A stretch of DNA of 64,000 nucleotides from Hyphomonas pacifica (GTDB lineage Bacteria; Pseudomonadota; Alphaproteobacteria; Caulobacterales; Hyphomonadaceae). Below are positions 1 to 55,314 of this stretch, one piece after another. The stretch is from assembly GCF_000682675.1 (NCBI RefSeq), contig NZ_AWFA01000012.1, positions 1-64,000 on the forward strand, given 5' to 3'. Below the pieces are notes generated by a model. It saw only the letters and a program-made list of their open reading frames with translations. It was not told where the DNA came from and searched no databases. A program made the translations under genes and the position numbers. How positions within the stretch are numbered: the stretch's first letter is position 1; every line of letters begins with the position of its first letter.

Positions 1-52
1 GCTTTGATTTCGTTCGGGAAAACCTGCCAGGCTTGTCGGATTGCGGCAGTCT
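1..52. repeat. Left copy of 52-bp direct repeat bounding the PKS/NRPS cluster
   Basis: This copy matches 55263-55314 in the same orientation at 51 of 52 positions. The only difference is a C at 32 against a T at 55294. The match stops at position 52. Because the window begins at position 1, the repeat could extend further left than can be seen. It lies just beyond the 3' end of the last PKS gene of the minus-strand arm. No gene is seen between it and that gene's stop codon at 109-111, and no convincing terminator stem for the operon is visible in 53-108. Confidence 0.9.
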
Positions 53-108
53 ATGTGCCTGTGAAGAGTTTTGCCTAAAATGCGTTTTTGCCGGTTTGAG
101 AGGAAGCG

Positions 109-3100
109 TCAGATAACGCCTTCCTCCCATTCTTCTTCTGTTTCCGCTCCAGCAGTCTCATTGTTTGCCGCATTCAGGGCTGCAGTCAGTTTTGTGACTG
201 CCTCATTAATTGTGATCCCGCTCAGCAGGTCACGCAGACCGATATCTATCTTGAGGGTAGCCGTGATGGCATTGCGGACTTGCACAGCCATCAGGGAATC
301 GAATCCCAGGTCAGAGATCGGCATGTCGGGATCCAGCGAGGATGGTGCATAGCCAAGGGCACGCCCGACATGGATTCTCAGGAAACCTTCCAGAAGTTCG
401 GGTCTCTGATCCGCAGGTGCAGCCAGGATATCCATTTCTGATTGGGCCGAAGCGTCAGCGCCCGCTGTCTCAGCCGGGACAGCATTGCGGCCCAGAAGGG
501 CGCGCACGCGGGTGCCGCTTTGTGAAGCGAGAAGATTGAGGTTCGCCTCAACCACGCTCGCATAGGCACGATTCTGGCTCACCAGCCTTTCCATCGCATC
601 AAGTCCTGCCTCAACGCCGATCTGGCCCAGACCAATGCGTTCCCACCGTTCCCGAACGGATGTCGGCAGGCGTGCGGCCATGCCGATATCCGCCCATGCG
701 CCCCAGCCGATGCTGGTGATCGGTTTGCCTTCGCTACGCCCGTGTGCGGCCAGGCTGTCCAGCCAGGCGTTTGCGCCCGCATAGTTCGCCTGACCCGGCC
801 CACCGAACATGGCGGAGCTGGAGGAGAAGAGGACGAACCAGTCTAGCGGCGCACGGGATGCGGCGCGTGTCAGATTCCGTGCGCCATCAACCTTCGGTCC
901 AGCAACCCTAAGAAGGCTGTCCAAAGATTGTTCGCTGAGTGGAGAGTCGTCCAGAATGCCGGCGGCATGCATGATACCGCGCAGGGGCAGGCTGTCTTTC
1001 AATGCAGTGGTGAAGAGATGATCGACAGAGGCAGAATCTGCGATATCGCAGGCAATGGCGCGGACTGTGCAGCCATGGGCCTCAGCCATCCGGGTGGCCG
1101 TCTGCTGCGCTTCGGCGCTGTCGCCTGAGCGGCCTGCCAGAATGATCTCGCCAGCCCCACGCTTTGCAAGACGTTCTGCAACAGCCAGCCCAAGACCTGA
1201 AAGCCCTCCGGTGACCAGATAGGCCCCGTCCTGACGCACTTCCATGCTATCGCCCGTCTGAAAATCAGGCAGGATGGCAATCTTGCCCGTGTGCCGGGCA
1301 TTCGCCATAAAGCGGAACGCATCAGCAGCCTGGGACAGAGGGAAGGCCTGCACAGGAAGCGGGGTGAGGGATCCACCTTCAACATCCTTCAGAAGACTCT
1401 CGAAGGAGGATCTGACCTGAGCGGGATCTGCAATGATCTGCTCGCCTAGATCAACAATCCGGTAATTCACATGCGGAGCACGCTCGGCTGCTTCTTCCGG
1501 TGTCCAGATATTATTCTTGCCGATCTCCAGGAAATAGCCGCCTGGCTTGGTCACGCGCATGCCAGCGACGATCATGTCTCCGGACAGCGCGTTGATGACC
1601 ATGTCGACGCCTTCGCCATTCGTGACTTTTTCGATCTGGTCGCCGAAACTGTCAGACCGGGAATCGAATGCGTGAGAGGCGCCGTGTTCAAGCACGAAGG
1701 CGCGCTTTTTCTTATTGCCGGCGGTGGCAATCACTTCGGCGCCCGCCCGCAGGGCAAGCTGCATGGCCGCAAATCCGACGCCCCCGGCAGCGGCATGGAC
1801 CAATACGCGCTGGCCTGGTTTCAGCCCGCCTGCTGTCGCAAAGCACAGCGCAGCCGTCAGGTAGGTGTTCGGCAGCGTGACGGCGTCCGCAAAAGTAATT
1901 GAGGCCGGTTTGGGAAGCACAAAGCGTTCCTTGACGGTGACATGGCTGGCAAAGCTGTCGCCTGCTAGGGCTACGACAGGGTCTCCGGGTTTCAGGCTGG
2001 AAACATGTTTGCCGACCCTGCTGACTACACCCGCGCATTCACTGCCCAGTCGGCCAGGATCGCCGGGATACATGCCAAGCGCATTCAGCACGTCCCGGAA
2101 GTTGAGGCCGCTCGCGCGAATGGCAATCTCTACATCGTGATCGCCCGGCGCTGTGCGCAGTTCTTCCTCAAGACGCAGCCGGTTGAGGTCCCCACGCTCT
2201 GTGACGCGCAGTACGCTACGTGTGTCTTCCGCCAGCGCGGCCGGGGCTTCCACAGGGCTGAGGCGGGGCGCGAAGAATGTGCCATTGCGCAGGGCCAGTT
2301 CCGGTTGACTGTTGGACAGCGCCAGGGCCTGCAGAATTGTTTTCGGATTTAGATCCGTATGGGGATCGAGATCCAGCTGCAGGATGTGCGAGGTCTGAAT
2401 TTCCGTATCTGCTGTACGGCATAGGCCGGCAAGTGTGCCTGCTGAAAGGTCCGGCAGGTCCTCAGGGAGGACGACCTTGGCCCCGCGGGTCAGGACGCAC
2501 ACATTTGTTCCGGCGCCGTCATGCTGAAGGGTCTGAAGTGTGGACAGGACAGCATCATATGTTGCTGCGCCAAAGGTGTCCTTCTCATCGCCACTTGTCG
2601 CCTCCATACCTGCGCAGGAAATGACCCAGGACGCAGGGGCTTGCTTGAGCGCTGCTGACAATTGCGAAGGCGCGATCAGGCGTGCGTTCAGTGTCTTTGC
2701 GATAGTCTCAGACTGGGCGCCGCCATTCCCGACGACAAGGACGCTCTCCGGGCTTGCGGCCTCAACAGAGGCAACAGGCTGCCAGGACAAGGCCAGCTCA
2801 TTGAGAGACATCTTTCCTGCGCCCAGGGCGCGCGCCAATGATTCAACTGAGACAACGCGGGCATGAAGCCCTTCAAGCCGGGCGATCGGTTCGCCCTGTT
2901 CTGTTTCCATAAGCAGGTCAGCGACAAGCTCAATATCATCAGAGCTTTCCTGGCGCAGACGGGCAACCATGACGACATTGCGCGGGGCAGGCCTCAGCCA
3001 CTGGATCTTGTCGATCCCGGTCGGCAGGTAGAGGCGGTCCTCGCCATCGCTTGGCACGATTGCGGTGACAGCATGGAAGATGCTGTCCAGAAGGGCCGGA

Positions 3101-6100
3101 TGGAAATTGTAGCTGGCAATGTCCTGTTCTGTATCCGGCAGGGTTGCCATGCCGACGGCGATGCCGTCTCCCTTGTTCAGGGTGGCGAGCCCGCGGAACA
3201 AAACTCCGTATTGCAGGCCCAGATTTTCCAGCCTTTCGTAAAGCGCCGGAACATCCACGGCCTCAGCGCACAGGGCGCGTGCCTCAGCCACGGTCGGGAT
3301 ATTGACGCTGTCCGATGTTGTGGTGCCGGACACGCGGGCATGTGCCAGATTTTGCCAGTCAGATCTCTCGTCTTCAGGTACACCGCGGACGATAAAGTCA
3401 AAGCCTTCCTCATGTGAGGGCTTGAGTTCCGTATGCAGCGTATGATCCGTGTCAGCATGTAATTCCAGCGGGGCATCAATGACCAACCCGGCAAGCGTGA
3501 CGGGCTGGTTGCCCATCGCCGCCTTGCCGGCTGTCAGGGCCATCTCGATATAGCCGGTCGCGGGGAAGATGACGCGATCAAGAATCTTGTGATCTGCCAG
3601 AAAGGCCGGGAAGTCAGCGCTTAGCGTTGCAATATGCGCATGTGCCGGAGGGGGCATTTTCTGCGTGTCGCCCAGCAGGGGATGAGAGGCTTCGCTGGCG
3701 CGTTGACGGCGTGCTGGCTGTTCGTCGATCCAGTAGCGTTGTTGCTGGAAAGGATATGTCGGTACGGCCACAAGTCTGCCGCCGGTCTCTTTGTAGACAT
3801 TCTGCCAGTTGATTTTCGCGCCAGCGGCATAGGACTGTGCCAGGGCTCCGCGGATGGTGGGCACATCCTTTTGGCCGCGGCGGAGAGATGGAATGGTTTT
3901 CCATTTTGCTGCAGGCCGTGCGCGGGCAGCGAGCCCAAGCAGGGCTGGCTGAGGGCCCAGTTCGATGAGGATGTCTGCGCCCGCGTCTTCCAGTGCGCCG
4001 ATACAGTCTGCAAAGCGTACGGCTCCGCGAGCATGGTCCCGCCAATATCTGGCGTCGGGCTTCTTACTGGCTGGGAAAGCCTGGCCAGTCAGGTTCGAAA
4101 TCAGCGGCAGTCGCGCAGATTGGTAAGAGACTTTACTCGCGGCCTGCTCAAAGGCATCCAGCATCGTGTCCAACAGCGGCGAGTGGAAGGCATGGCTGAC
4201 CGACAGGCGTCGGAACCCGATCTCCTTGCTTTCCAGCTCTGCGAGGACGGCCTCAACGGCTTCCTCACTACCGGAAATGACGGTCTCTTCAGGTCCGTTG
4301 ACCCCGGCGATGGCAATGTCTTTCTCGCGGCCTTTCAGTAGGTTCGCAATCTGGTCTTCGCTTGCAAAGACTGCCGCCATGGCACCGCCAGCGGGCAATT
4401 GCTGCATCAGGCGCCCGCGTTCGGCAACCAGACGCAGGGCATCTTCATGCGACATGACCCCGGCCAGGCAGGCGGCGACATATTCACCGATGCTATGCCC
4501 GGCGACCATGTTTGGCGTAACGCCCCATGATTTCCATAGCTCTGCCATGGCGTATTCCACGGCAAACAGGCAAGGCTGGGTGTAGAGGGTTTCAGAGATA
4601 CGGCTGTCTTCTTCGCTCTCAGTATACAGCACATCGAGAAGCGGGCGATTTAGTATGCCGGACAGGATTTGTGCAGAGGTGTCGATGGACGTGCGGAAGA
4701 CTGGCTCGGTCTCGTACAGCTCTCGTGTCATGCCGGGATATTGAGAGCCCTGACCGGTACAAAGGAATGCAATGCGGGGGGATTGGCTTGTGCTGGCATG
4801 TCCCGTCGCGGTGCCGGGCAAGGGAGCGCCCTGGGCCAGAGCCTCAAGGCCTTGCCGCAGGTCATCTGTGCTCGAAGCAACAAGTGCGGCGCGGTGCATG
4901 CGGTGCGCGCGGCCAACGGCAAGTGTGCGCGTGAAAGAGGAAAAGTCCGCAGAATTGTCACGGCTCAGATAGTTCGCGTATCGCTCGGCAAGATCCCGCA
5001 GGGCGTTCGGGGTCTCGGCTGATAGCGGGACTGTGCGCAGGGCATGATCTTGTTCTGTCTCTGCCGTCTCGGCCTCAGGCGCGTCCGCGAGCAAAATGTG
5101 CACATTCGTGCCGCTGAAACCGAAAGAACTGACACCCGCCCGGCGCGGCGTTTCGCGGCGCGGCCATGGCGTAGGGGCCGTTACAACCTCCAAAGCAAGG
5201 TCATCCCAGTCAATACCGGGATTGGGTGTTTCGAAATGCAGCTGGGGCAGAAGCGTTTCTGATCTCATGCAGGCCAGAACCTTCAGCAGTCCTGCAATGC
5301 CGGAAGCCGCTTCCGTATGGCCTATATTGGTCTTGATGGAACCGATGCGCAGCGGGTTTGAGCGCTCGCGCCCTTCGCACAGAATGGCACCCAGAGCGCC
5401 TGCTTCAATCGGGTCACCAATGGGGGTACCGGTACCGTGGGTCTCGATATAGTCGATATCCAGCGGGGTCAGGCTTGCGCTCTTCAGGGCGTTGCGGAGC
5501 ATGCGCTCCTGGGCTGGACCGCTGGGGACGGTCATGCCGCTGGAGCGACCATCGGAATTGGTCGCAGAGCCGACAATCAGACCGAGAATGGGGTTTCCGT
5601 CAGCCTTTGCGTCAGACAGGCGCTTCAGCGCAATCATGGCGCAGCCTTCTGCCCTGGCAAAGCCATTTGCGGAGGCATCGAACGTCTTGCAGGCACCGTC
5701 TGGCGAAAGCATGCCCCAGCGTGAGAACATGGCCATGGCATCCGGCAGGGCAATCACGGCGGCGCCACCGGCCAGCGCCAGATTGCTCTCCCCCTCGCGA
5801 AGGCTGGCGCAGGCAAGATGGATTGCGTTCAGAGACGAAGAGCAGGCCGTGTCAACGGCAACGCAGGGCCCAAGAAAACCATAGGTAAAGGAGATGCGGC
5901 CGGGAGCGGCATTCAGCGCGCCGCCTGTCGCAGAATAGACATCAGACTGTTCGGCGCCCTTCGCCCACATCAGGCGAGCATATTCGGTCGTGGACATGCC
6001 GACGAAAACGCCCGTCGCGCTGCCCTCCAGCTTGTCTGGCGCTATACCTGCCGTCTCCATGGCTTCATGAGCCGTTTGCAGAAGAAGACGTTGCTGAGGG

Positions 6101-6450
6101 TCCAGGGATTTTGCCTCGCGTGGAGAGATGCCGAAGAATTGCGGATCGAACAGGTCAATGCCTTCAACAAATCCCCCCTTTTTGGTGACGATCTTGCCCG
6201 CTGCATTCTGGTCAGGCGAATAATATGCATCAGCATCCCAGCGGTCAGCCGGAATCGTGTCGACCGCGTTCACCTTGCCGGCGAGCAGGTTGTGCAGGTC
6301 ATCCAGAGACTTTACCCCGCCAGGGTAACGCATGCCGCATCCGACAATTGCGATCGGTTCGGTCTTGGCATGCTTGGCGGCATCCAGTTTGGATTGAAGC
6401 CGCTCAATGGCGCTGAGTGCGTCTTTCAGCATGTCACGGGAGGTTGTCAT
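109..6450 (-). CDS. Type I PKS single module M6: KS-AT-DH-ER-KR-ACP, last PKS of the minus arm
   Basis: This 2113-residue protein is one fully reducing extension module. KS covers about 33-455 (DTACSSS with Cys203, His338, His378). AT covers about 560-880, with GHSIG (Ser653) and HAFH at 753-756, a malonyl-CoA pattern. DH covers about 920-1200: His954 and Asp1122 are present, but the glycine of HxxxGxxxxP is Asp958. ER is about 1410-1730 (HAAAGGVG at 1552-1559). KR is about 1740-1925, with an NADPH loop at 1743-1754, LDD at 1833-1835 (B-type) and Tyr1890. ACP Ser2052 sits in GFDSL. The expected product is a saturated two-carbon extension. The start overlaps the transporter stop by ATGA. Unlike M1-M5, it ends in a short acidic tail (EEEWEEGVI) instead of an 'LSEEEL' helix, which suits handover to a TubC-type docking domain on NRPS1. 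It has no thioesterase domain. Confidence 0.95.
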   Translation of the reverse strand: MTTSRDMLKDALSAIERLQSKLDAAKHAKTEPIAIVGCGMRYPGGVKSLDDLHNLLAGKVNAVDTIPADRWDADAYYSPDQNAAGKIVTKKGGFVEGIDLFDPQFFGISPREAKSLDPQQRLLLQTAHEAMETAGIAPDKLEGSATGVFVGMSTTEYARLMWAKGAEQSDVYSATGGALNAAPGRISFTYGFLGPCVAVDTACSSSLNAIHLACASLREGESNLALAGGAAVIALPDAMAMFSRWGMLSPDGACKTFDASANGFARAEGCAMIALKRLSDAKADGNPILGLIVGSATNSDGRSSGMTVPSGPAQERMLRNALKSASLTPLDIDYIETHGTGTPIGDPIEAGALGAILCEGRERSNPLRIGSIKTNIGHTEAASGIAGLLKVLACMRSETLLPQLHFETPNPGIDWDDLALEVVTAPTPWPRRETPRRAGVSSFGFSGTNVHILLADAPEAETAETEQDHALRTVPLSAETPNALRDLAERYANYLSRDNSADFSSFTRTLAVGRAHRMHRAALVASSTDDLRQGLEALAQGAPLPGTATGHASTSQSPRIAFLCTGQGSQYPGMTRELYETEPVFRTSIDTSAQILSGILNRPLLDVLYTESEEDSRISETLYTQPCLFAVEYAMAELWKSWGVTPNMVAGHSIGEYVAACLAGVMSHEDALRLVAERGRLMQQLPAGGAMAAVFASEDQIANLLKGREKDIAIAGVNGPEETVISGSEEAVEAVLAELESKEIGFRRLSVSHAFHSPLLDTMLDAFEQAASKVSYQSARLPLISNLTGQAFPASKKPDARYWRDHARGAVRFADCIGALEDAGADILIELGPQPALLGLAARARPAAKWKTIPSLRRGQKDVPTIRGALAQSYAAGAKINWQNVYKETGGRLVAVPTYPFQQQRYWIDEQPARRQRASEASHPLLGDTQKMPPPAHAHIATLSADFPAFLADHKILDRVIFPATGYIEMALTAGKAAMGNQPVTLAGLVIDAPLELHADTDHTLHTELKPSHEEGFDFIVRGVPEDERSDWQNLAHARVSGTTTSDSVNIPTVAEARALCAEAVDVPALYERLENLGLQYGVLFRGLATLNKGDGIAVGMATLPDTEQDIASYNFHPALLDSIFHAVTAIVPSDGEDRLYLPTGIDKIQWLRPAPRNVVMVARLRQESSDDIELVADLLMETEQGEPIARLEGLHARVVSVESLARALGAGKMSLNELALSWQPVASVEAASPESVLVVGNGGAQSETIAKTLNARLIAPSQLSAALKQAPASWVISCAGMEATSGDEKDTFGAATYDAVLSTLQTLQHDGAGTNVCVLTRGAKVVLPEDLPDLSAGTLAGLCRTADTEIQTSHILQLDLDPHTDLNPKTILQALALSNSQPELALRNGTFFAPRLSPVEAPAALAEDTRSVLRVTERGDLNRLRLEEELRTAPGDHDVEIAIRASGLNFRDVLNALGMYPGDPGRLGSECAGVVSRVGKHVSSLKPGDPVVALAGDSFASHVTVKERFVLPKPASITFADAVTLPNTYLTAALCFATAGGLKPGQRVLVHAAAGGVGFAAMQLALRAGAEVIATAGNKKKRAFVLEHGASHAFDSRSDSFGDQIEKVTNGEGVDMVINALSGDMIVAGMRVTKPGGYFLEIGKNNIWTPEEAAERAPHVNYRIVDLGEQIIADPAQVRSSFESLLKDVEGGSLTPLPVQAFPLSQAADAFRFMANARHTGKIAILPDFQTGDSMEVRQDGAYLVTGGLSGLGLAVAERLAKRGAGEIILAGRSGDSAEAQQTATRMAEAHGCTVRAIACDIADSASVDHLFTTALKDSLPLRGIMHAAGILDDSPLSEQSLDSLLRVAGPKVDGARNLTRAASRAPLDWFVLFSSSSAMFGGPGQANYAGANAWLDSLAAHGRSEGKPITSIGWGAWADIGMAARLPTSVRERWERIGLGQIGVEAGLDAMERLVSQNRAYASVVEANLNLLASQSGTRVRALLGRNAVPAETAGADASAQSEMDILAAPADQRPELLEGFLRIHVGRALGYAPSSLDPDMPISDLGFDSLMAVQVRNAITATLKIDIGLRDLLSGITINEAVTKLTAALNAANNETAGAETEEEWEEGVI

Positions 6451-7316
6451 GAAGGGAGTCTCTTACGAAGGGCGTTGAAGCCGAGAAGTATGGGGGTAAT
6501 ACTGGCCAGGCAAACAATTGCCAAAAGAATAAGAACCTGAAGGCCGGGCCGCTGATGTGTACTGAGCCAGTTCAGAAGGAATGTGAGTGGAATTGGAGCA
6601 AGCAAAAGCGGTGCAACCGGCGCCACAGGCGCTGTTTTTGCGGCTTTATCAAGCATCCACAAGGCGACCAAACTCATTCCTCCGGTAAGCATAAAGAAGA
6701 GGATGTGTTGCAAATCCGGTGCCATCCACACCTTCGGAATGAACGGCATCAGGCAAGCGACTATCCCGAGCGGCAAATAGAAAAGATTTGCCGATGTTGG
6801 CTCGGTTTTTAGGGCGCGTGTCAACACAATGAACAGGCTGAACGATACAGGCATTCCAATGATTCCGGCCAGGGCACGCGCATGAGGAATGGCTGGCTGT
6901 ACGAAGATCAGGCCCGCCGCCAGACCGCCTGCAATGGCCGCCAGCCAGAGGAAAGCGGGTGTCCGGTCTTTTGACAGGATCGCCGTAAAGAGGATGACAA
7001 GGAAGGGAGTGGCCCAGAATGCGGCATAGGCTGTGTCTCCGAACCCCTGCTGCCTGGCGAAGGCCCAGGAAAGGGGCATCATCAACAGCATGACAGCCCT
7101 CAGAAACTGGAAGGTAAGTTTTCCAGTGCGGACCAGCCTTTTGGGGCCCCGAACACCCACAACAAGCCCCCAGATCACCAACTGCATCAGATAGTGCATC
7201 CAGACTATTTGAAGAGGCGAATAGGCGTTGAGAAGCGAGCCTATGATGGCTTCCGTAAGGATCCAGACCAGAACAAATCCGACCATCAGGGCTATGCTGC
7301 GCGATGCCATCGTCAT
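6447..7316 (-). CDS. EamA/DMT-family membrane transporter embedded in the PKS operon
   Basis: This 289-residue protein is almost entirely hydrophobic, with about ten predicted membrane spans in two halves, as in the EamA (drug/metabolite transporter) superfamily. There is no signal peptide beyond the first span, and the C-terminus is short and basic (NALRKRLPS). It sits between PKS modules M5 and M6. Its ATG overlaps the M5 stop and its TGA overlaps the M6 start, both as ATGA, so it is co-transcribed and probably translationally coupled with the megasynthases. By position it probably exports the product or an intermediate, or confers self-protection. The substrate cannot be read from the sequence, and EamA proteins also move amino acids, nucleotides and sugars. 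Confidence 0.85.
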   Translation of the reverse strand: MTMASRSIALMVGFVLVWILTEAIIGSLLNAYSPLQIVWMHYLMQLVIWGLVVGVRGPKRLVRTGKLTFQFLRAVMLLMMPLSWAFARQQGFGDTAYAAFWATPFLVILFTAILSKDRTPAFLWLAAIAGGLAAGLIFVQPAIPHARALAGIIGMPVSFSLFIVLTRALKTEPTSANLFYLPLGIVACLMPFIPKVWMAPDLQHILFFMLTGGMSLVALWMLDKAAKTAPVAPVAPLLLAPIPLTFLLNWLSTHQRPGLQVLILLAIVCLASITPILLGFNALRKRLPS

Positions 7317-37590: not shown

Positions 37591-37622
37591 GACCAGATCA
37601 ACTTTCTAAAATACCCACTTCT

Positions 37623-45384: not shown

Positions 45385-48300
45385 GACTCGTCAATCTTCA
45401 GATTTTCCGGCACACGCCATCGCCATTGTAGGGATGGCGGGACGATTTCCGGATGCGCCGGATCTGGACAGTTTCTGGCGCAATGTTGTCGAAGGACATG
45501 AGTCCCTGCGCACCTTTGATGCCGAAAGCATGGCAGCTGCCGGGATTCCGCCTGAACTTCAGGCCAATCCGGATTTCGTGCCGAAGGGAACCGTGCTTGA
45601 CGATACGGATATGTTCGATGCGGACTTTTTCGGAGTGTCTGCCGGGGAAGCGCGGATCATTGATCCACAGCAGCGTATCTTTCTGGAATGCGCCTGGGAG
45701 GCGCTTGAACATGCCGGTTACGCGCCCGGGCAGATAGAAGATCCGGTCGGCGTCTATGCCGGCACAGGCATGAATACGTATCTGATGGCGCATATCCTGT
45801 CGGACAGGTCTGTTGCAGAGACTGCTGGCGGGTATCAACTGATGCTCGGCAATGACAAGGACTTCCTCTGTACACGAGTAAGCTACAAGCTGGACCTGCG
45901 CGGACCAAGCGCCACGGTGCAGACGGCCTGTTCTACCTCTCTTGTGGCAGTTGAAATGGCCTGCCGCGCCCTTTCCCGCGGGGAGTGCGACATGGCATTG
46001 GCCGGGGGCGTGTCCATTAACTTCCCCAGCAGTACAGGATATCTTTACCAGGAGGGAATGATTTTCTCTCCTGACGGCCACTGTCGGCCTTTTGACGAAA
46101 AGGCCAAAGGTACGCGCGCCGGGGCAGGGGCGGGCGTGGTCACGCTGAAGCGTCTGGACGACGCGCTGCGGGATGGAGACACAATTCACGCCGTCATTCG
46201 TGGCATTGCCGTGAACAATGACGGCGCAGCGAAGGCGGGGTACACCGCCCCGTCAATTGATGGTCAGGCCGAAGTCATCGCCATGGCCCAGACGCTTGCG
46301 GACGTTGATCCTCGAACCATTGGTTATATCGAGGCGCACGGCACCGCCACGCCGCTAGGAGATCCGATCGAAATTGCGGCCCTGACGCAGGTCTTCCGTT
46401 ATGAGACAGATGATGTCGGCTTTTGCCGCCTGGGGTCACTGAAGGCCAATATCGGTCACCTCGACGCGGCGGCGGGTGTTGCGGGTTTGATCAAGGCGGC
46501 TCTGGTGCTGCGCGAAGGCGTCATTCCGCCTCTTGTTAATTATTCCCGCCCTAACCCAAAACTTGAATTGGACACCAGCCCGTTTGTTGCCAGCGCCGAA
46601 GCGACGGAATGGACCGGAAATGGCGCGCCGCGCCGCGCCGCCGTGAGTTCTTTCGGTATTGGCGGAACGAATGTCCATGCCGTGCTGGAGCAAGCACCCG
46701 TAGCTGTGCCGGCCATTGCCAGCAGAAAGCATCAGCTGCTCGTCCTCTCTGCCCGCACGAAAGAGGCGCTCACGACTGTGTCTTCCCGTCTGGCAGATCA
46801 TATCGGTAAAGGCACAAGCCAATCTCTCGCAGACATTGCCTGGACCCTTCAGGCCGGTCGAACTGAATTCCCTGTGCGCCGGTTTGTTATAGCTGGCGAT
46901 GGAGAGGAAGCCACGGCGGCCCTGTCGCGATCCTTCACGCCGCGTCGACACGAGGGTGGCGCTCGTCAGGTGGCCTTCCTGTTCAGTGGCCAAGGCAGCC
47001 AATATGCAGGTATGGGACAGGACCTTTATGCCGGAGAGCCCGTCTATCGCGCTGCGATTGATCAGTGTAACGGTATTCTGAAATATATGGATCTTGATCT
47101 GTGCAAGGTGTTGTTTGAAGGCAGTGATGAGGATCTTGCCAAGACCAGCATTGCGCAGCCAGCCTTGTTTGCCACCGAATATGCCATGGCAAAGCTCTGG
47201 CAGAGCTGGGGCGTCGAACCTGCTGCGATGATGGGGCACAGCATCGGCGAGTATGTTGCGGCGCATCTGGCGGGAGTCATGACTCTGGAAGAGGCGCTTC
47301 TCCTGGTCGCCGAACGTGGCCGCTTGATGCATGCCATGCCGGCGGGTGCCATGGCTACGGTACAATTAGGGGGCGATCAGGTGCGCTCGCGACTCCCAGA
47401 CGGCGTGGAGATTGCCGCCATCAACGCGCCTGAGCTGACCGCCATATCCGGATCTGCCAGCGAAGTGGAAGCGTTTCTGACGCGTCTTGAATCGGAGGGC
47501 GTTGGCGTGCGCCGTCTGCATACGTCGCATGCGTTCCATTCCTCCATGATGGAAGTAGCGCTAGAGCCCTTCCGCGCCGCGGCGGCGAAGGTCAATCTCA
47601 AGGAACCGCAAGTGCCATACATTTCCAATGTGACCGGCACATGGATCACGCCTGAACAGGCCGTTTCTCCCGACTATTATGCCAAGCATCTGCGTCAGGC
47701 TGTTCTGTTCGAGCAGGGCTTGCAGGAGCTTGCCCGAAACCCAGGTCTCTTCCTTCTGGAAGTCGGACCCGGGATTGCGCTTTCATCGCTTGCCGGCATT
47801 TCCCTGGATAACGCACAGCACCGCATCGCCTCGTCCATGCGTCATCCGCGTGACAGTCAGCATGACATGATACCGGCGCTCAACGCTGTAGGGGGCATGT
47901 GGGCCGCAGGCGTGCCGATTGACTGGGCGGCGCTTCACGGTGAAACTTCTTCAGTGCACCGCGTTCCTCTGCCAACATATCCTTTCGAGCGCACGCGTCA
48001 CTGGGTGGACCCAAAGCCTGATGGTGGGTTCATGCAGGCCTCTGCGGTTCAAGTAAATGACCCATTACTGGAAGTATTTTCACCTGAGGCCGGTCTCGGC
48101 CAATTCCTTCAGGCGCCGACATGGACACAGGTTCCTGCCGACACAATGCAGGCTCCGGCCTTCAGCGGAAAATGGGTCGTTCTGGCGGATAATGCCGCGT
48201 TTGGAAAAGCTCTGGCATCCGGTTTTGAGACAGGCGGTGCCGAGGCTTTGCTTGGTACACCATCAGGCACGTGTGCGGGAGATGCAGCAGACAGTATTCG

Positions 48301-49930
48301 CACGCTAAACGCCCTCATTAACGAGGCAAATGGAGCGCTTTCAGGTATCATTATTGCGCTTGGTCTGGAAGACGGAGCCAACATTCCTGGTCGTCTTCGC
48401 TATGATGTCCTCAGTGCACTGGCGCGCCATCCCGAAATTGCGACTGAGCGTCCAGTCAGGATCGTGCTTGCGACACGTGGCGGCCTGCCTGTGCTGGAGG
48501 AAACCGTAACAGACCCCGAAGTGGCTTTGGCTTTTGGCGCTATCAGCGTATTGGCGGCTGAGACGACACATTTGATGCCTCAGCATGTGGACTTCGCGGA
48601 TGACGGCAAGGCCACATCGCAAACGAATGCGCGGCGTCTTCTTGCTGAAGCGGGGCGTGAAAAGTTCGAACTGCAACTGGCCTGGCGCAAGCATCGCTGG
48701 CTGCGACGGTTCGAGCCTATTGAGCTGCCACGCGCTGAAAGAACACCGGATATTCTGAAACAGAAAGGTGTCTATCTGATTACGGGTGGCTTGGGCGGTA
48801 TCGGGCGTACTCTCGCCCGACAGCTTGCCGAAAAAGTATCTGCACGGATTGTGATGACCACACGAAATGCAGTGCCTCCCCGTGACGCGTGGGATGACCT
48901 GCTGGCAGGCGCTTCCGGCGGGGGCAGGATGGCCAGCGTGATCAAGACTGTTCGTGAGATTGAATCTCTTGGGGGAGAAATTCACATTGAACAAGCGGAT
49001 GTCGTTGACCGAGAGGCCATGCAGGGCGTTGTTGACCGCACCCGTGAAGCATGGGGGGAGATCTCCGGGATTATTCACGCGGCAGGTGTTCCTGGGAATG
49101 GCAATCTTCTGGCTCTTGAAACGGAACAGGAGGTGACAGAGACATTCGCTCCGAAAGTTGATGGTCTGCGCGTGCTGGCTGATGTTCTGGGTGACACAGA
49201 GCTCGACTTTGTTGCTCTGATGAGCAGTATCAATGCAGTCAGGGGGATTGCGGGCAATGCAGCTTATAGCTCTGCCAATGCTTTCCTTGATAGTTTTGCC
49301 GCCTCGAATGAGCGTCCAGCGGCATGGGAAAACATTCTGCTCTTCAACTGGGAGGCCTGGCGTGATGTTGGTATGGCCAGCCGAGTTGATCGCTCGCGGA
49401 TGAACCCGGATGAACGCGACCTTCTCTACAGGGTTTCGATTACCCCGGATGCGGGGGCAGATATTTTTCAACGTGTTCTTGCCTCTGATGTCGATCAACT
49501 TGTCGTGTCAAACTACAATTTGGCCTTCGTACTCATGCAGGAACGCGCGGAGTTGATTTTGCGCGCCCATGGAGCGGATACGTCCCAAGCGAATGCCGAG
49601 GGGGCTGCATTCTCTGCTGCAACGGGGGATGTTTCAGCGTCCATTGCGGCAAGGTTTGGCCGTGAGGAAGAGCAGCAGATCGCCATGATCTGGGAAGAGC
49701 TTCTTGGGGGTGAAATGCAAGGACCTCACGAGAACTTCTTCGAACGTGGTGGTCATTCGCTGATGGCGACGCGTGTCTTGTCCCGGCTGAATGCCGTCAC
49801 CGGCGTGAAGCTGACCTTGCGTGACATATTTGACTCTCCCACGATTGGAGAACTCGCCGATTGCGTTGTATCGCATCGTGATGACTCTCAGGATAGTCAG
49901 GATACTGATCGTGAGGAGTTTGTGATTTGA
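45377..49930 (+). CDS. M7: PKS module KS-AT-KR with a PCP-like carrier, between the two NRPSs
   Basis: The protein has 1517 residues from the ATG at 45377 (MDKTRQSSD), which overlaps the NRPS1 stop. An in-frame upstream extension to 45179 lies inside NRPS1 and has no conserved sequence. KS is about 14-440 with VQTACSTS (Cys185), EAHGTAT (His321) and His361, the signature of KS domains that accept aminoacyl chains from a PCP. AT is about 530-850 (GHSIG Ser622, HAFH 718-721; malonyl type). KR is about 1130-1310 (GGLGGIG, Tyr1297). There is no DH. The carrier motif is GGHS (Ser1461), like a peptidyl carrier. It should extend the glycyl chain by two carbons to a 4-amino-3-hydroxybutyryl (statine-like) unit. 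The acidic tail DTDREEFVI probably docks to the TubC-type domain of NRPS2. Confidence 0.94.
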   Translation: MDKTRQSSDFPAHAIAIVGMAGRFPDAPDLDSFWRNVVEGHESLRTFDAESMAAAGIPPELQANPDFVPKGTVLDDTDMFDADFFGVSAGEARIIDPQQRIFLECAWEALEHAGYAPGQIEDPVGVYAGTGMNTYLMAHILSDRSVAETAGGYQLMLGNDKDFLCTRVSYKLDLRGPSATVQTACSTSLVAVEMACRALSRGECDMALAGGVSINFPSSTGYLYQEGMIFSPDGHCRPFDEKAKGTRAGAGAGVVTLKRLDDALRDGDTIHAVIRGIAVNNDGAAKAGYTAPSIDGQAEVIAMAQTLADVDPRTIGYIEAHGTATPLGDPIEIAALTQVFRYETDDVGFCRLGSLKANIGHLDAAAGVAGLIKAALVLREGVIPPLVNYSRPNPKLELDTSPFVASAEATEWTGNGAPRRAAVSSFGIGGTNVHAVLEQAPVAVPAIASRKHQLLVLSARTKEALTTVSSRLADHIGKGTSQSLADIAWTLQAGRTEFPVRRFVIAGDGEEATAALSRSFTPRRHEGGARQVAFLFSGQGSQYAGMGQDLYAGEPVYRAAIDQCNGILKYMDLDLCKVLFEGSDEDLAKTSIAQPALFATEYAMAKLWQSWGVEPAAMMGHSIGEYVAAHLAGVMTLEEALLLVAERGRLMHAMPAGAMATVQLGGDQVRSRLPDGVEIAAINAPELTAISGSASEVEAFLTRLESEGVGVRRLHTSHAFHSSMMEVALEPFRAAAAKVNLKEPQVPYISNVTGTWITPEQAVSPDYYAKHLRQAVLFEQGLQELARNPGLFLLEVGPGIALSSLAGISLDNAQHRIASSMRHPRDSQHDMIPALNAVGGMWAAGVPIDWAALHGETSSVHRVPLPTYPFERTRHWVDPKPDGGFMQASAVQVNDPLLEVFSPEAGLGQFLQAPTWTQVPADTMQAPAFSGKWVVLADNAAFGKALASGFETGGAEALLGTPSGTCAGDAADSIRTLNALINEANGALSGIIIALGLEDGANIPGRLRYDVLSALARHPEIATERPVRIVLATRGGLPVLEETVTDPEVALAFGAISVLAAETTHLMPQHVDFADDGKATSQTNARRLLAEAGREKFELQLAWRKHRWLRRFEPIELPRAERTPDILKQKGVYLITGGLGGIGRTLARQLAEKVSARIVMTTRNAVPPRDAWDDLLAGASGGGRMASVIKTVREIESLGGEIHIEQADVVDREAMQGVVDRTREAWGEISGIIHAAGVPGNGNLLALETEQEVTETFAPKVDGLRVLADVLGDTELDFVALMSSINAVRGIAGNAAYSSANAFLDSFAASNERPAAWENILLFNWEAWRDVGMASRVDRSRMNPDERDLLYRVSITPDAGADIFQRVLASDVDQLVVSNYNLAFVLMQERAELILRAHGADTSQANAEGAAFSAATGDVSASIAARFGREEEQQIAMIWEELLGGEMQGPHENFFERGGHSLMATRVLSRLNAVTGVKLTLRDIFDSPTIGELADCVVSHRDDSQDSQDTDREEFVI

Positions 49931-52900
49931 CCGCGGCGGAACTCCTGTCAGAGTTGCGTGCCAAAGGCATTGAGGTCTCCCCCGGGGATGGCAAACTGCG
50001 CGTCAATGCGCCTTCCGGGGCTTTGACGCCCTCTTTGCGTGAAAGCATTACCGCGAACAAGCAGGCCCTTCTGGATCTTTTGTTATCACCTGATCTGGAC
50101 GAGATTCCTCTGGAGCGTGTGTCCCGGCAAGATGCATTGCCCTTGTCACACTTTCAGGAAAGGCTCTGGCTGCTCCAGCAACTGGACCGGCAAGGGACGG
50201 AATACAATCTTGTCACGGTCTGGCCCATGGGCGCAGGGGTGGATGCAGGGCGTCTGGATATTGCTATACGTAAAGTATTGTCGAGGCACGAAATTCTTCA
50301 TACGGCCTACAGACGAGATGGGGATGTTCTGAAGGCTGTATTGCTTCAGGCTGACGCCGTACACATTGATCGTGAGGATTTAAGCTCACTTTCCGAAAGC
50401 GAGCAGAATGCTCACCTTGATCAGGAAGTCGCCCGGCAGACAGCCTTGCCGTTTGATCTGGAGCTGGGCGGAGCTTTCCGCACAATTGTATATGATCTTG
50501 GTGGGCGAGGATCCGCTATTCTTGTTGCCGCACATCATATCATTGTCGATCATTGGTCAATGTCGCTGTTGAAGCAGGAATTGCAGTCTTCCCTTGATGA
50601 TGACGCCTATCCTTACCATGCTGCAGAGGTGCAGTATACGGATTACTCGGTTTGGGCGCGTAAGGTTGAACAAACTCATTCCATGAGCGCGGCGTTGGAC
50701 TGGTGGGGCGAATATCTGGCCTCTCCGCCGGAGCTGTGCGCCTTCGATGCTGACATGGCCCCCAGCATGCAGGGCACAGGTGCCAGCGTGTCGTTCATGT
50801 GGGATGAGACGCTGTCATCAGGTCTTGGAAATTTCGCGCAGTCAGAAAGTGCAACGGTATATATGTGCCTGGTTGCCGCCTGTGCCGCTATGCTTAACCG
50901 GCAGACTGGGCAGGAAGACATTCTCATCGGCACGGCTGTCGGGGCGCGTTACCGGCCCGAGTTTGAGACCATTATAGGTCCGTTCGTGAACTCTATTGCC
51001 CTGCGTTTGCAGGTCGATCAGAAGGTCTCTTTCCGTGCTCTGGTGGCACAGGCCCGCGAAGCGGTGCTGGAGACCAGTTCCCGAGCTGAAGTGCCCTTTG
51101 AGGCAGTTATTGAGCGTGTGCAGCCGACGCGAAATCTCAGCCGCTCATTGCTGTTCCAGACTGCCGTCGTAATGCAGAATGCCTGGGAGGGGCAGTCGGA
51201 AGCCATTCATGGCGGCGGCGCCATTCACGATCTCACCTGGTTCATTCGCCCCTTGGAGGGGCGTTTTGTCGGGTCGATGGAGTATCGATCCGATATTTAC
51301 AGTCAGCAGACAATACAGGGCCTGTTGATACGGCTTGAGGCTTTCCTTCGCGGTGCCATTGCTTCGCCGGACCGTCCAATTGGGGAAATTCCGGTTTATG
51401 TTGGTGATGAACGCCAACATCTGATTGAGGCCTTCAACCCACCGGCGAGCGAGTATGACCACTCGCCAGTTGCGGCACAGTTCGCGCGGATGGCCAGTCA
51501 GTATCTCTCGCGCCCGGCGGTGACCTTTGCCGGGGAAACGTTCAGCTATGGACTGCTTAATGCGCGTGTGAACCAGGTAGCGCACCGCCTGATCGATATG
51601 GGTATCGGCAAGGGGGATATTGTCGGGGTCTGTGTTCAGCGCGGCCACGGTTTGCTGGAATCCCTTCTGGGTGTGCATCGTGCAGGTGCCGCCTATTTGC
51701 CGCTGGATCCTGATTTTCCGCAGGGTCGTCTTGAATACCAGCTGTCAGACAGTGGGGCGAAAGCCTTACTGGCGGAGGCGTCATTTTCGGAAAAGCTGGA
51801 CTTGCCGGAAGGGCTGCTCACACTGGATCTGCAGCAGGATGCCGATGCACTGGCTGCGTGTCCTGATCATGAACCAGACGTTCAAGTCTTGCCTGAAGAC
51901 ATCAGTCATCTGATCTATACGTCAGGATCCACGGGGCGCCCGAAGGGAGTCATCATCCGGCATGGCTCTGTCTCCAACGCGTTCTCTTCCTTACGCCGAG
52001 AGCCCGGAATAGGGGCTGAAGATGTTGTTGCCGCGACGACGACAGCGTCCTTTGACATTGCGGGCGTGGAATTGCTGCTGCCTCTGACAGTCGGGGCGCA
52101 TATCCAGATTCTGTCGAGAGAGATTGCAACAGATGGTAAAGCGCTAGCCAAGGCACTGGATGCCTGTTGTGCGACGATCGCCCAGGCCACTCCGTCTGCG
52201 TGGCGCATGCTGGTCGAGGCGGGATGGCAAGGCGGACCTCACATTCGTGCGATCACAGGCGGAGAGCCTCTGACGCGCGACCTTGCGGACAAGCTGCTCT
52301 CGCGTGTCGGCTCCCTCTGGAACGGCTACGGCCCGACCGAGACAACTATTTATTCCTCGGGCTGTTTCATTTCGCCGGATGGGGAAGGCATCAGCATTGG
52401 CAAGCCCCTATCCAATACCCGCATCTATGTTCTGGATGCCAATGATGAGATCGCTCCGGTCGGTATGCGCGGAGAGATCTGTATTGCCGGTGATGGTGTT
52501 GCTGTCGGATATCATGATATGCCTGCCGAGACTGAGACAAAGTTTCGGCCGGATCATTTTGCTGCGTCAGCGGATGGGGCTGGCCTCTATTACCGCACAG
52601 GCGATGTAGGCCGCTGGTCATCCGATGGCAGGCTATATCACCTCGGGCGCAGAGACCATCAGGTAAAAATCCGTGGGCTGCGTATCGAACTGGGAGAGGT
52701 GGAGTCTATCCTGCTGGCATCACCCGCAATTCGTCAGGCAGTCGTCATCGTCAGCGAAGCTGGAGAGGGGGATCAGCGTCTCGTCGCATATGTCGTTTTC
52801 GAGCCTGGCAGTGAAATGACCGCGAGTGAAGTTCGCCGCCTGGCGAGAGATCGCCTGCCCAATTACATGGTGCCCTCCGTGATTGTCGAACTCACGGCTC

Positions 52901-53223
52901 TGCCCATGACTCCGAACGGCAAGGTCGACCGCAAGGCGCTGCCAGACCCATACAGCCAGGCCATGCAGCGCATGGTTCGTATACCGCCCGCACAGGGCTT
53001 TGAGGCTGACCTTGCAGCCATCTGGAAAGATTTATTGCAGGTGCAGGAAATCGGTGCAGAAGACAATTTTTTCGATCTTGGCGGGCATTCGATATTGACG
53101 CTGCGCGTTGTGGCACGGGTGGAAGAGATGCTAGGATTGTCGCTTGATCCCCGGCTTATGTTCTTCCAGAACCTAAGACAAATTGCGGCCCAGCTGCGTC
53201 GTGATTCCGAGGGTGAGGGATGA
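49927..53223 (+). CDS. NRPS2: docking-C-A-PCP, terminal module without thioesterase
   Basis: The 1098-residue protein starts at TTG 49927, sharing TTGA with the M7 stop. GAGGAG at 49913-49918 gives good spacing and supports that start. A TubC-type docking domain (about 1-55) is followed by C (about 70-490) with HHIIVDH at 203-209, where His replaces the Gly of HHxxxDG. A is about 515-1000 (YTSGSTGRPKG 664-674, YGPTET 801-806), and the PCP has Ser1055 (GGHS). Specificity positions read D-I-V-Q-I-G-G-I-Y. This partly resembles glycine-type codes but I cannot assign it; a small or unusual residue is possible. The protein stops 44 residues after the PCP serine, with no thioesterase, reductase or terminal C domain. 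Release must therefore be done in trans, most simply by the two hydrolases directly downstream or the type II thioesterase. Confidence 0.94.
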   Translation: MTAAELLSELRAKGIEVSPGDGKLRVNAPSGALTPSLRESITANKQALLDLLLSPDLDEIPLERVSRQDALPLSHFQERLWLLQQLDRQGTEYNLVTVWPMGAGVDAGRLDIAIRKVLSRHEILHTAYRRDGDVLKAVLLQADAVHIDREDLSSLSESEQNAHLDQEVARQTALPFDLELGGAFRTIVYDLGGRGSAILVAAHHIIVDHWSMSLLKQELQSSLDDDAYPYHAAEVQYTDYSVWARKVEQTHSMSAALDWWGEYLASPPELCAFDADMAPSMQGTGASVSFMWDETLSSGLGNFAQSESATVYMCLVAACAAMLNRQTGQEDILIGTAVGARYRPEFETIIGPFVNSIALRLQVDQKVSFRALVAQAREAVLETSSRAEVPFEAVIERVQPTRNLSRSLLFQTAVVMQNAWEGQSEAIHGGGAIHDLTWFIRPLEGRFVGSMEYRSDIYSQQTIQGLLIRLEAFLRGAIASPDRPIGEIPVYVGDERQHLIEAFNPPASEYDHSPVAAQFARMASQYLSRPAVTFAGETFSYGLLNARVNQVAHRLIDMGIGKGDIVGVCVQRGHGLLESLLGVHRAGAAYLPLDPDFPQGRLEYQLSDSGAKALLAEASFSEKLDLPEGLLTLDLQQDADALAACPDHEPDVQVLPEDISHLIYTSGSTGRPKGVIIRHGSVSNAFSSLRREPGIGAEDVVAATTTASFDIAGVELLLPLTVGAHIQILSREIATDGKALAKALDACCATIAQATPSAWRMLVEAGWQGGPHIRAITGGEPLTRDLADKLLSRVGSLWNGYGPTETTIYSSGCFISPDGEGISIGKPLSNTRIYVLDANDEIAPVGMRGEICIAGDGVAVGYHDMPAETETKFRPDHFAASADGAGLYYRTGDVGRWSSDGRLYHLGRRDHQVKIRGLRIELGEVESILLASPAIRQAVVIVSEAGEGDQRLVAYVVFEPGSEMTASEVRRLARDRLPNYMVPSVIVELTALPMTPNGKVDRKALPDPYSQAMQRMVRIPPAQGFEADLAAIWKDLLQVQEIGAEDNFFDLGGHSILTLRVVARVEEMLGLSLDPRLMFFQNLRQIAAQLRRDSEGEG

Positions 53224-54005
53224 CGCCGTTCTATTTTGGATCGCGAGAGCGGCGGCTGTTTGGCGTTTATCATCCAGCGCAGGGCGGGGGTGGAAGCCGC
53301 GCCGTTGTGATGTGCTATCCTTGGGGATACGAATATGTGAACGCCCACCGCTCACTTGTGAAGCTGGCGAGTCTTCTGTCTCAGGAAGGTTATCATGTCC
53401 TGCGCTTTGACTATTTCGGCACAGGGGATTCAGCTGGCGAAGACCATGAAATGACGCTTCAGGGATCACTGAGCGACATTTCCATGGCGATTGAAGAGCT
53501 GAAAGACTTGAGCGGAGCAGATCATGTGTCCGTGATCGGCCTGCGTGTGGGGGCGGCGCTTGCTGCGCAGGCGGCAAGAAAATGGCCTGACGATATTTCG
53601 TCCCTGGTTCTGTGGGATCCGATCCTCAAGGGCGCAGAGTATTTGCAGGAACTTTACTTGCTGGATGACTCCATGCGCATTCCCGGTGTTGGCCCGGCCG
53701 CGCAGTTTTCGCCGGAGCGGGGAGGTGGCCGTGAAGTGATGGGGTTTCCTGTTACAGATGCCCTGGCATCCGAATTCTCGGGTCTGGATGTTGTCAGCAC
53801 TATCTCGGAACTGAAACTTCCGGTTTTCATGGTCGCCATCCGTCCTGTTCCGGGGCAGGCGGACGTGGCGTATGAATTGTCGTCCCGCGATGGTAGCGGT
53901 TTTGAGCTGATTGATGATCAACCCGTCTGGCATGAGGAATGGCCGGATAATGTGGGCGTTATTCCTGTCACTGTTCTAAACCGGATCGTCTCATGGATGA
54001 ACTGA
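53220..54005 (+). CDS. Alpha/beta hydrolase-fold protein lacking the serine nucleophile (exosortase-associated hydrolase 2-like)
   Basis: The 261-residue protein has an alpha/beta hydrolase layout (VLRFDYFGTGDSAGE at about 60-75). At the nucleophile elbow, where GxSxG is expected, it reads GLRVGAALA, so Arg replaces Ser. This GLR(x)GA elbow is, from memory, typical of the 'hydrolase 2, exosortase A system-associated' family. No exosortase or polysaccharide genes are nearby. The ATG overlaps the NRPS2 stop (ATGA), and the 3' end overlaps the next hydrolase by 13 nt, so it is tightly tied to the NRPS arm. The missing nucleophile suggests a binding, scaffold or acyltransfer-assisting role rather than ordinary hydrolysis. 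Pairing with the next gene is conserved-looking and may form a heterodimer (inference). Confidence 0.8.
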   Translation: MTPFYFGSRERRLFGVYHPAQGGGGSRAVVMCYPWGYEYVNAHRSLVKLASLLSQEGYHVLRFDYFGTGDSAGEDHEMTLQGSLSDISMAIEELKDLSGADHVSVIGLRVGAALAAQAARKWPDDISSLVLWDPILKGAEYLQELYLLDDSMRIPGVGPAAQFSPERGGGREVMGFPVTDALASEFSGLDVVSTISELKLPVFMVAIRPVPGQADVAYELSSRDGSGFELIDDQPVWHEEWPDNVGVIPVTVLNRIVSWMN

Positions 54006-54940
54006 CAGCACAGATCACGGAACGGGCGATCAAGATCGGGGGCGGCGAACAAGTTGCGGCCATCCTGGCGCGGCCTGTGGAGGATACAAGCCTTCCTGCG
54101 ATTGTTATTCTCAACACAGGTGTTGCCCATCGTGTGGGTCATCACAGGAAATTTGTGACCCTGTCCCGGCGTCTTGCGAATAACGGACACATAGTGGTGC
54201 GCTTCGACTTTCCTGGCCTTGGGGACAGCCCGGCCATGACGGGAGAAGATACGCTGCTCGATACTAATATGGCATCCATTCGCGATGTGCTCGACTGGAT
54301 GGATGCCACCCTGGGGCGGCGCAGAATTGTCCTTCTTGGATTGTGTTCGGGAGCGGACCAATCTATCATCTATGCCAGCCGTGATCCTCGTGTGAATGGG
54401 GCAATTCTGCTTGACCCGTCCATTCCTCGGACACGCAGATATTACGTGAATGATTTGTACAAGCGCTTGATGCGCCGTTCTTTCTGGACAAATATCCTGT
54501 CCGGGCGCGGACGTGTATGGAACAAGGTGCGTCGCGTTCTTCACCGGCAGACCGGCCCTCAAATGACTCTGCCTGGTCAGTTCTCCCGCCCAAATCTGGA
54601 ACATCCGGAAGCGATTGCCTTTCTGGAGAATGTCTATCAGGGCGCGATGGATCATCATGCGGAACTGCTTGCCGTGTTTACCGCAGGGCCTCACTATCAG
54701 CATAATTACCGTAGACAGATTATTGATGCCTTGCCGGGGGTGGATTTTGGAGACCGGCTGAAGCTGTATTTCCTCAAGGAATGCGACCATACATTTCTTC
54801 GTGAGGCGCAGCGCGAGCGTCTGTACACCATCATAGCTGACTGGCTGGCGCAGAGGTTTCCTGCTCTGGAGGAGGTGCGCGTTGATGTTGGGCAGACAGA
54901 AGAAACCGGCGATCCGGATATGGAGATCGAGGAGTTCTAG
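53993..54940 (+). CDS. Alpha/beta hydrolase with Cys at the nucleophile elbow (exosortase-associated hydrolase 1-like)
   Basis: In this 315-residue alpha/beta hydrolase-fold protein the oxyanion region VVRFDFPGLGDSP (about 68-80) is clear. The elbow reads LGLCSGADQS (about 114-123), placing Cys at the nucleophile position. A plausible catalytic His lies in ECDHTFLRE (about 260-268). It resembles, from memory, the 'hydrolase 1, exosortase A system-associated' group that travels with the family of the preceding gene. As the last gene of the plus arm, after an NRPS with no release domain, it is the best candidate for an in-trans chain-release enzyme (hydrolysis, cyclisation or transfer to an acceptor). 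The C-terminus is a strongly acidic tail ending MEIEEF, reminiscent of the acidic tails of M6 and M7. A terminator follows 55 bases after the stop. Confidence 0.8.
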   Translation: MDELTAQITERAIKIGGGEQVAAILARPVEDTSLPAIVILNTGVAHRVGHHRKFVTLSRRLANNGHIVVRFDFPGLGDSPAMTGEDTLLDTNMASIRDVLDWMDATLGRRRIVLLGLCSGADQSIIYASRDPRVNGAILLDPSIPRTRRYYVNDLYKRLMRRSFWTNILSGRGRVWNKVRRVLHRQTGPQMTLPGQFSRPNLEHPEAIAFLENVYQGAMDHHAELLAVFTAGPHYQHNYRRQIIDALPGVDFGDRLKLYFLKECDHTFLREAQRERLYTIIADWLAQRFPALEEVRVDVGQTEETGDPDMEIEEF

Positions 54941-54994
54941 AACGGCTTGAGTTTGCTTGCTGAATTGCCGTGCCTTTGTCTCGGAATCAGCACC

Positions 54995-55028
54995 AAAAGC
55001 CGGACCGGGCGTTGCCCGTCCGGTTTTT
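54995..55028 (+). terminator. Rho-independent terminator of the plus-strand arm
   Basis: The stem pairs CCGGA and CGGGC with GCCCG and TCCGG around a GTT loop, with a single bulged C, and is followed by five T. An A-run precedes the stem, so it could also act in reverse. It lies 55 nt after the stop of the second hydrolase. Confidence 0.85.
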
Positions 55029-55262
55029 GCATTTTCGGTCCTTGCAGATGGAGCAGCGCTCCATGTGAGACAGGGACAAATTCATGGGTTGGAGTGGATC
55101 TGCTACGCCCCTGTGCACATGGGCGCCGTCCATCCGCGTGAAGCCGAGGGGATAATCGGGAGGGTCCCCGAAAGCTTCGGACCCGCCGCGAGCCATGTCA
55201 CAGGCCGCGACAGGCATGAGTATACGCTCGCGAGATAGGGGGGCGGAAAACTATTCTCACAG
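55029..55262. other. Gene-free, hairpin-containing stretch between the terminator and the right repeat
   Basis: No convincing gene is seen in these 234 bp. Two stable hairpins stand out: a perfect 7-bp stem with a 3-nt loop at 55048-55064, and a stem at 55162-55184 pairing GGGT with ACCC and CCGAA with TTCGG with two unpaired C. A run of six G occurs at 55248-55253. I checked by eye for tmRNA, SRP, RNase P and 6S RNA marks and common riboswitch cores and recognised none. A small structured RNA or the leader of the folate genes remains possible. Confidence 0.4.
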
Positions 55263-55314
55263 GCTTTGATTTCGTTCGGGAAAACCTGCCAGGTTTGTCG
55301 GATTGCGGCAGTCT
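55263..55314. repeat. Right copy of 52-bp direct repeat bounding the PKS/NRPS cluster
   Basis: This copy matches 1-52 at 51 of 52 bases in direct orientation. It lies 57 bp before the folP start, beyond the terminator of the last cluster gene, so the pair brackets all biosynthetic genes and nothing else. The sequence contains short inverted CTGCC/GGCAG words. It does not resemble the 3' end of a tRNA, and I cannot identify it as part of a known gene. It could be an attachment or insertion-target duplication. Confidence 0.9.

Follow-up and report, generated by a model that had tools for sequence, protein, structure and literature searches.

A PKS/NRPS gene cluster of Hyphomonas pacifica lying between two copies of a host intergenic segment upstream of folP

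The stretch of Hyphomonas pacifica DNA analysed here (64,000 nucleotides, hereafter the window) contains a large PKS/NRPS cluster with a nearly identical short sequence at each end, an arrangement that raises the question of whether this repeat was brought in by the cluster as part of its own integration machinery, or whether it is host DNA between two copies of which the cluster came to lie. The window's own genome (G000) was compared principally with two relatives, the metagenome-assembled genome P03SWT1bin.4 (G016) and Hyphomonas beringensis 25B14_1 (G012). The features to which the following account refers are as follows.

1..52, plus strand: 3' end of the left repeat copy (51/52 bases identical to 55263-55314; at the contig start; complete left copy in G016)
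53..54985, no strand assigned: inserted DNA, PKS/NRPS cluster of 54,933 bp (absent between the same neighbours in G012, present in G016)
109..36690, minus strand: minus arm, six PKS ORFs and a 289-aa ORF
109-6450, 7313-13900, 21426-25781 and 32176-36690, minus strand: PKS ORFs with Pfam support
13897-21429 and 25778-32179, minus strand: PKS ORFs recognised by homology only (tblastn, PKS homologues)
6447-7316, minus strand: 289-aa ORF without a Pfam match (ORF list, Pfam scan)
36726..37562, minus strand: thioesterase (PF00975, E 1.2e-43)
37765..39243, minus strand: flippase of the polysaccharide-exporter (MOP) kind (PF13440, E 1.1e-51; NF007773 below its cut-off)
39338..40231, minus strand: 4'-phosphopantetheinyl transferase (PF01648, E 6.1e-17)
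40417..53223, plus strand: plus arm, NRPS 40417-45384, PKS 45179-49930 and NRPS 49927-53223 (Pfam)
53220..54940, plus strand: two alpha/beta hydrolases (PF12146 and PF00561)
54986..55314, plus strand: right repeat copy in full (329 bp), corresponding to native intergenic DNA upstream of folP (two copies in G016 and one in G012, same boundaries)
54994..55029, plus strand: terminator-like hairpin and T run (predicted fold; inside the right repeat copy)
55037..55183, plus strand: GGTCC...GGACC structured motif (inside the repeat; relatives at other Hyphomonas intergenic places)
55372..56208, plus strand: folP (dihydropteroate synthase), the native right neighbour (PF00809, E 3.2e-74)

The cluster and the extent of its boundary repeat

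Comparison of positions 1-52 and 55263-55314 of the window confirmed that 51 of 52 bases are identical, the two lying in direct orientation, a pairing whose chance expectation, computed from base composition, was ~5.5e-20, and the 52-bp direct repeat described in the first-pass annotation was thereby borne out as a real pair. As a full length, the figure of 52 bp did not stand: because the window begins at the first base of contig C12 (93-contig draft, 3.42 Mb), the left copy is truncated, and the 52 bp are the tail of a longer repeat. The other end of the left copy was located at the end of contig C46, where 33 of 34 bases match 54986-55019, and the remainder of this copy in G000 consists of those 34 bp or lies in the assembly gap. 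The proposal that the sequence left of position 1 be sought to establish the full repeat length was thus answered, that length being 329 bp in the window's genome and 333 bp in G016. The broken ends of C46 and C12 each stop exactly 31 bases past an inter-copy mismatch (repeat positions 3 and 309), the pattern to be expected where a repeat that is otherwise exact interrupts a 31-mer assembly graph; the left copy was apparently cut between the two contigs at a break of this kind, and the same pattern suggests that its middle is identical to the right copy. The case illustrates how a draft assembly can conceal most of a boundary repeat.

As the left copy lies at the edge of a contig in a draft of 93, it could also be read as an artefact, no more than a spurious contig end, but this was judged exceedingly improbable, since the separately assembled G016 holds both copies, 7.8% diverged, within one contig, and C46 bears the left copy's other end beside the expected neighbour gene. 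DNA searches of the G000 genome at E <= 0.001 recovered no copies besides those flanking the cluster; the many scattered 52-mers that had been named as a refuting outcome were not encountered, and a dispersed element was rejected as the identity of the repeat. Shorter matches to the first part of the repeat were present in other Hyphomonas genomes.

The inserted DNA, with the 132-aa gene as its left neighbour, extends 56 bp and 45 bp past its outer ORFs as non-coding sequence, and has a GC content (57.5%) similar to that of its flanks (58.2 and 58.3%). Pfam scanning of 13 cluster ORFs revealed no integrase (13897-21429, 25778-32179 and small ORFs lying outside the scan), in agreement with the earlier statement that no integrase or transposase lies between the copies, and ARAGORN located no tRNA or tmRNA in the window. 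The best NCBIfam matches of the two hydrolases at 53220-54940 were TIGR03101 and TIGR03100 (exosortase-A-associated hydrolases 2 and 1), both below curated cut-offs, and the combination of exosortase-A-type hydrolases at the cluster end with a flippase perhaps hints at an exported or surface product.

Within the repeat, the terminator-like hairpin is followed by GGTCC...GCGGATGG...CCATCCGC...GGACC, with variable inner stems and a conserved long stem. The hairpin (~54994-55029) sits inside the right copy, and the first-pass placement of that copy just past the plus-arm terminator was consequently incorrect. The pattern TGCRGATGG-N(62-92)-CCATCCGC was matched in 22 of 42 Hyphomonas genomes and its reversed form gave 0 matches, a control that understates chance, as the forward pattern was found in 85 of 398 genomes of the order; matches outside the genus, and some inside it, resembled coding or tRNA sequence by eye. 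From 45 stretches (43, many representing the same place twice, plus two more), 19 were kept, eight having been dropped for lack of GGACC and others as duplicates or as not fitting the motif start; five of the 19 were folP loci. Among 19 loci inspected, the motif lay between convergent ORFs in seven according to crude ORF calls. A stem-pairing test, for which the windows were picked after seeing the sequences, gave for the third stem a mean of 5.3 pairs within versus 3.75 between sequences (5.8% of swaps reaching the own mean) and a less clear result for the inner hairpin (4.8 versus 3.5 pairs; 13.7% of swaps), while RNAalifold applied to a plain MAFFT alignment returned the long outer stem only, with compensatory change at one of nine pairs. 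No Rfam match was obtained on the repeat region at E up to 1, and none at gathering score in seven further motif loci. The motif was also seen at, for example, G000:C23:91434, L146, L149, L164 and L167, while other Hyphomonas regions (L089-L091 and L094) share a terminator-like hairpin whose sequence resembles that of the repeat start.

Occupied and empty folP sites and the age of the probable insertion

A query spanning window positions 54941-55400 was searched against 41 genomes, comprising the window's own, 24 of the genus and 16 of the order. Two long copies were recovered from G016 (C14:327397-327860 and 382742-383074), ~55.3 kb apart on one contig and flanking the cluster, and one copy from G012; seven more genomes gave shorter, weaker matches and 31 gave none. 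The G016 cluster aligned with the window in pieces that were 93-96% identical, the lowest of which includes the right flank. In G012, DNA shared with C46 leads directly to the single repeat copy and thence to folP, with no cluster between, and flippase matches were just 20-23% identical; inspection of the folP upstream region in relatives, as had been advocated at the outset, accordingly yielded one repeat copy with the same neighbours and no cluster.

When 17 of 80 folP loci were examined with six smaller cluster genes, such genes were present at folP only in the G016 record (L003). In the G012 record (L004) the 132-aa neighbour precedes folP, their protein matches being separated by 404 bp, and four others (L010, L013, L014 and L015) have it at 83-92 bp with no cluster. 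At the remaining 11 loci, some of which hold little upstream DNA, the 132-aa gene does not adjoin folP, and L005-L008 and L011 show other left-flank genes upstream while six show none. In G024 and G019, too, folP is preceded by the 132-aa gene (protein matches 403 and 405 bp apart), without a cluster. The simplest reading, and one supported by these loci, is that the cluster was probably inserted next to folP in the G000/G016 line, insertion being favoured over loss because the more distant folP loci examined show no cluster genes. The converse, namely that a cluster between two repeats was ancestral and was lost from G012 by recombination between the copies, would give exactly the G012 arrangement, and in Haloquadratum 10 of the 11 repeat-bounded indels that could be classified were read as deletions (PMC3119063). 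It is nevertheless very unlikely here, given that the cluster is likewise lacking in more distant Hyphomonas in which the 132-aa gene precedes folP, and that the left-right divergence in G016 (7.8%, a figure that partial conversion could have lowered) is well below the ~14.5% to G012.

The three complete repeat copies proved to be 85.4-85.7% identical to the single G012 copy, with corresponding values of 92.2% between the left and right copies of G016 and 91.8% between the right copies of G000 and G016. Because the three are equally distant from the empty-site copy and none looks foreign, the repeat is, as judged from these identities, duplicated host intergenic DNA upstream of folP, that is a duplicated target, and not an att site carried by the cluster. 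The first-pass view of the pair as the boundary signature of a horizontally acquired unit can be retained for the insertion itself, 54,933 bp bracketed exactly by the pair and with a clean empty site in G012, but not for the repeat as belonging to the unit, since it is host intergenic sequence, present once in G012 where the cluster is absent.

The proportion of four-fold sites that differ between G000 and G016 was 0.157 for the left flank (297/1889), 0.134 for the cluster (1332/9918) and 0.153 for the right flank (215/1402), individual genes spanning 0.076-0.213 within the cluster and 0.050-0.294 within the flanks; the equivalent counts between G000 and G012 were 376/1095 for the left flank (8 of 11 genes, the other three having no match in the fetched stretch) and 461/1357 for the right. 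As the cluster and its flanks diverge similarly between G000 and G016, the insertion predates the separation of the two; by this measure the cluster has been inherited together with its neighbours since before that parting, and its insertion is not recent.

An 86-bp portion of the repeat (its first 34 and last 52 bp) is readable in all four copies, and the five two-against-two sites therein, all located in the 52-bp tail and none in the start, without exception grouped the copies by genome. This within-genome likeness supports recombination between the copies, less clearly so over the whole repeat. Column counts over the three complete copies, with gap columns counted, gave 19 uniting both G016 copies (of which 11 are changes confined to G000, leaving 8), 14 uniting the right copies (8 seen only in the G016 left copy, leaving 6), 10 uniting the G000 right with the G016 left copy (6 seen only in the G016 right copy, leaving 4), and two differing in all three. 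This mixed pattern indicates that conversion was at most partial, and is read here as that of an old duplication with later conversion, part of the near-identity in G000 being deduced from the assembly break. The repeat pair seems to be still recombining; loss or multiplication of the cluster could follow, despite the lack of any mobility enzyme found in it, and its excision is plausible.

Homologous clusters at other places in the genus

A flippase match of some sort was detected in 41 of 42 Hyphomonas genomes, and matches of at least 67% identity only in G000, G016, G053 and G002. The clusters of G053 (C47:21284-75785) and G002 (C28:1396-56278) are collinear with the window at 58-69% protein identity (tblastn) apart from two ORFs, the phosphopantetheinyl transferase (47 and 55%) and the 289-aa ORF (51% in G002, no match in G053). 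Records of these homologous PKS/NRPS clusters are L115-L117, L120 and L121 (G053:C47) and L118, L119 and L122 (G002:C28). The 329-bp segment was not found at either cluster, so that relatives holding the cluster without the repeats, an outcome named in the first-pass annotation as counting against its proposal, do exist in the form of these homologues.

The G053 cluster is preceded by tRNA-Leu and followed by an ORF that resembles by eye an IS3-like transposase, and its two flanks are joined without a cluster in five of eight other genomes (G002, G005, G000, G016 and G012), the left flank being unmatched in the remaining three (G024, G015 and G007). A repeat of the tRNA end in G053 was considered and rejected, only weak 21-23-bp matches away from the junctions having been found. 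In G002 the contig bearing the cluster begins within an ORF that by eye resembles a transposase, and the terminal 28-36 bases of this contig are found again at seven further positions, six of which lie at contig ends.

G053 and G002 share 98% identity in trigger factor, G053 and G000 share 84%, and the flanking DNA compared is 86-89% identical, as against 63-70% identity between the G053 and G002 clusters in the five proteins compared. Because the clusters have diverged far more than the core sequence examined (one core protein and flanking DNA), we infer that the clusters in other Hyphomonas entered separately, at other places. Horizontal acquisition as such, also proposed from the outset, is upheld, in that clusters of this kind appear to have been acquired horizontally within the genus.

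Plasmids were rejected as a source, the 125 plasmid records with a flippase match all being <60% identical (31-37% in eight among the matches listed). So too was a donor outside the genus, flippase matches at E <= 1e-70 being confined within the order to five of 398 genomes (G000, G016, G053 and G002, plus G175 at 34%); in the class, the same threshold returned one of 385 genomes, the window's own.

Routes of entry, comparable systems and significance

Overall, the locus is best explained, at a probability of about 0.75, as a horizontally acquired cluster lying between duplicated host segments, with subsequent host recombination acting on the repeat pair. The common ancestor of G000 and G016 would have acquired the PKS/NRPS cluster horizontally, with insertion between the 132-aa gene and folP, and the 329-bp host intergenic segment now lies on both sides in direct orientation, as is seen complete in G016 and in part in G000. 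Exchange without crossover would keep the copies alike, as the sequence pattern supports; crossover between them is predicted to release a 55,262-bp circle and leave a clean single-copy site such as that of G012, and unequal exchange to produce tandem copies of the cluster.

As to the means of entry, the likeliest route, although taken alone it falls somewhat short of even odds, would be single-crossover integration, by host homologous recombination, of a circle carrying the cluster and a copy of the segment; such a circle would account for transfer within the clade, though not for how the cluster was first inserted, and there is no backbone of a plasmid left. A possible variant of the same overall explanation, put forward more tentatively, is that a linear fragment was inserted non-homologously where the target was broken or being replicated, with duplication of 329 bp, which would account directly both for the host-derived duplication and for the tight trimming (56 and 45 bp past the outer ORFs) without a backbone. 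Set against it, long duplications of this kind are unusual in bacteria and the genome has no Ku homologue, on which ground Ku-dependent joining was rejected. Site-specific integration, with the folP-upstream segment as attB, the repeats as attL and attR, and a recombinase since lost or supplied in trans, would be in keeping with the direct orientation, the sharp boundaries, the single copy at the empty site and the seven tyrosine-recombinase matches in the genome outside the window. It is quite improbable none the less: att identity is usually far shorter than 329 bp, foreign sequence, which an imported attP should have left in part of each copy, is not apparent in the complete copies, all of which look host-derived, there is no integrase among the scanned cluster ORFs and no tRNA in the window, and the homologous clusters of G053 and G002 lie elsewhere, without the 329-bp segment. 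A doubtful extension of host recombination on the repeat pair would make the cluster a passive mobile unit whose presence or absence at folP switches without a recombinase of its own: it might exit cleanly as a 55-kb circle, transfer to segment-bearing relatives and re-enter by single crossover, some empty sites, that of G012 included, could be exit scars, and the structured motif inside the repeat might promote exchange.

Set beside established classes of mobile DNA, the locus has neither an integrase of its own (in the scanned cluster ORFs) nor a tRNA or tmRNA attachment site (in the window) such as would characterise an integrase-type genomic island or ICE, and the G053 cluster follows tRNA-Leu yet is without a repeat of the tRNA end. 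Nor are there the flanking IS of a composite transposon, the flanks in G000 and G016 consisting of the repeat plus native genes; transposase-like ORFs or a multi-copy end do lie beside the clusters of G053 and G002. Target-site duplications made by transposases are short, about 2-14 bp, and the duplication here is 329 bp. Features of a recombinase-less island between direct repeats were found, namely repeats at both ends, no recombinase in the scanned ORFs and, in G012, a relative with one repeat copy and no island. In Salinispora, genomic islands hold biosynthetic clusters at different chromosomal places by repeated horizontal acquisition; the clusters described here resemble them in occupying different places within one genus, and differ in the long stretch of host DNA that, at one Hyphomonas place, is duplicated in direct orientation at the cluster ends.

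The H47 genomic island of E. coli is mobile although it has no gene for a site-specific recombinase, host functions excising it between its direct repeats (PMC5426353). The present cluster is like it in that no recombinase was found and direct repeats stand at both ends, and unlike it, H47 having short repeats and RecA-independent excision, in its 329-bp host duplication, its 55-kb PKS/NRPS content and an excision that is predicted only. Repeat-bounded strain-specific segments of Haloquadratum walsbyi are represented by one repeat copy in one strain and by two around the segment in the other, the repeats including 139- and 734-bp examples; this parallels the one copy in G012 and the two around the cluster in G016, but those segments were mostly read as deletions (PMC3119063), whereas the outgroups here favour insertion. 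From these two described cases the Hyphomonas cluster differs in the length and host derivation of its repeat and in its cargo; among the papers listed by the literature searches nothing was specific to the cluster or its repeat, and no wider claim is made.

The locus constitutes a well-bounded case of a large biosynthetic cluster settling without an integrase or transposase having been found in it, and brings together within one genus an occupied site, an empty site, outgroups and separate acquisitions, whereby host-driven loss or amplification of such a cluster becomes directly testable.
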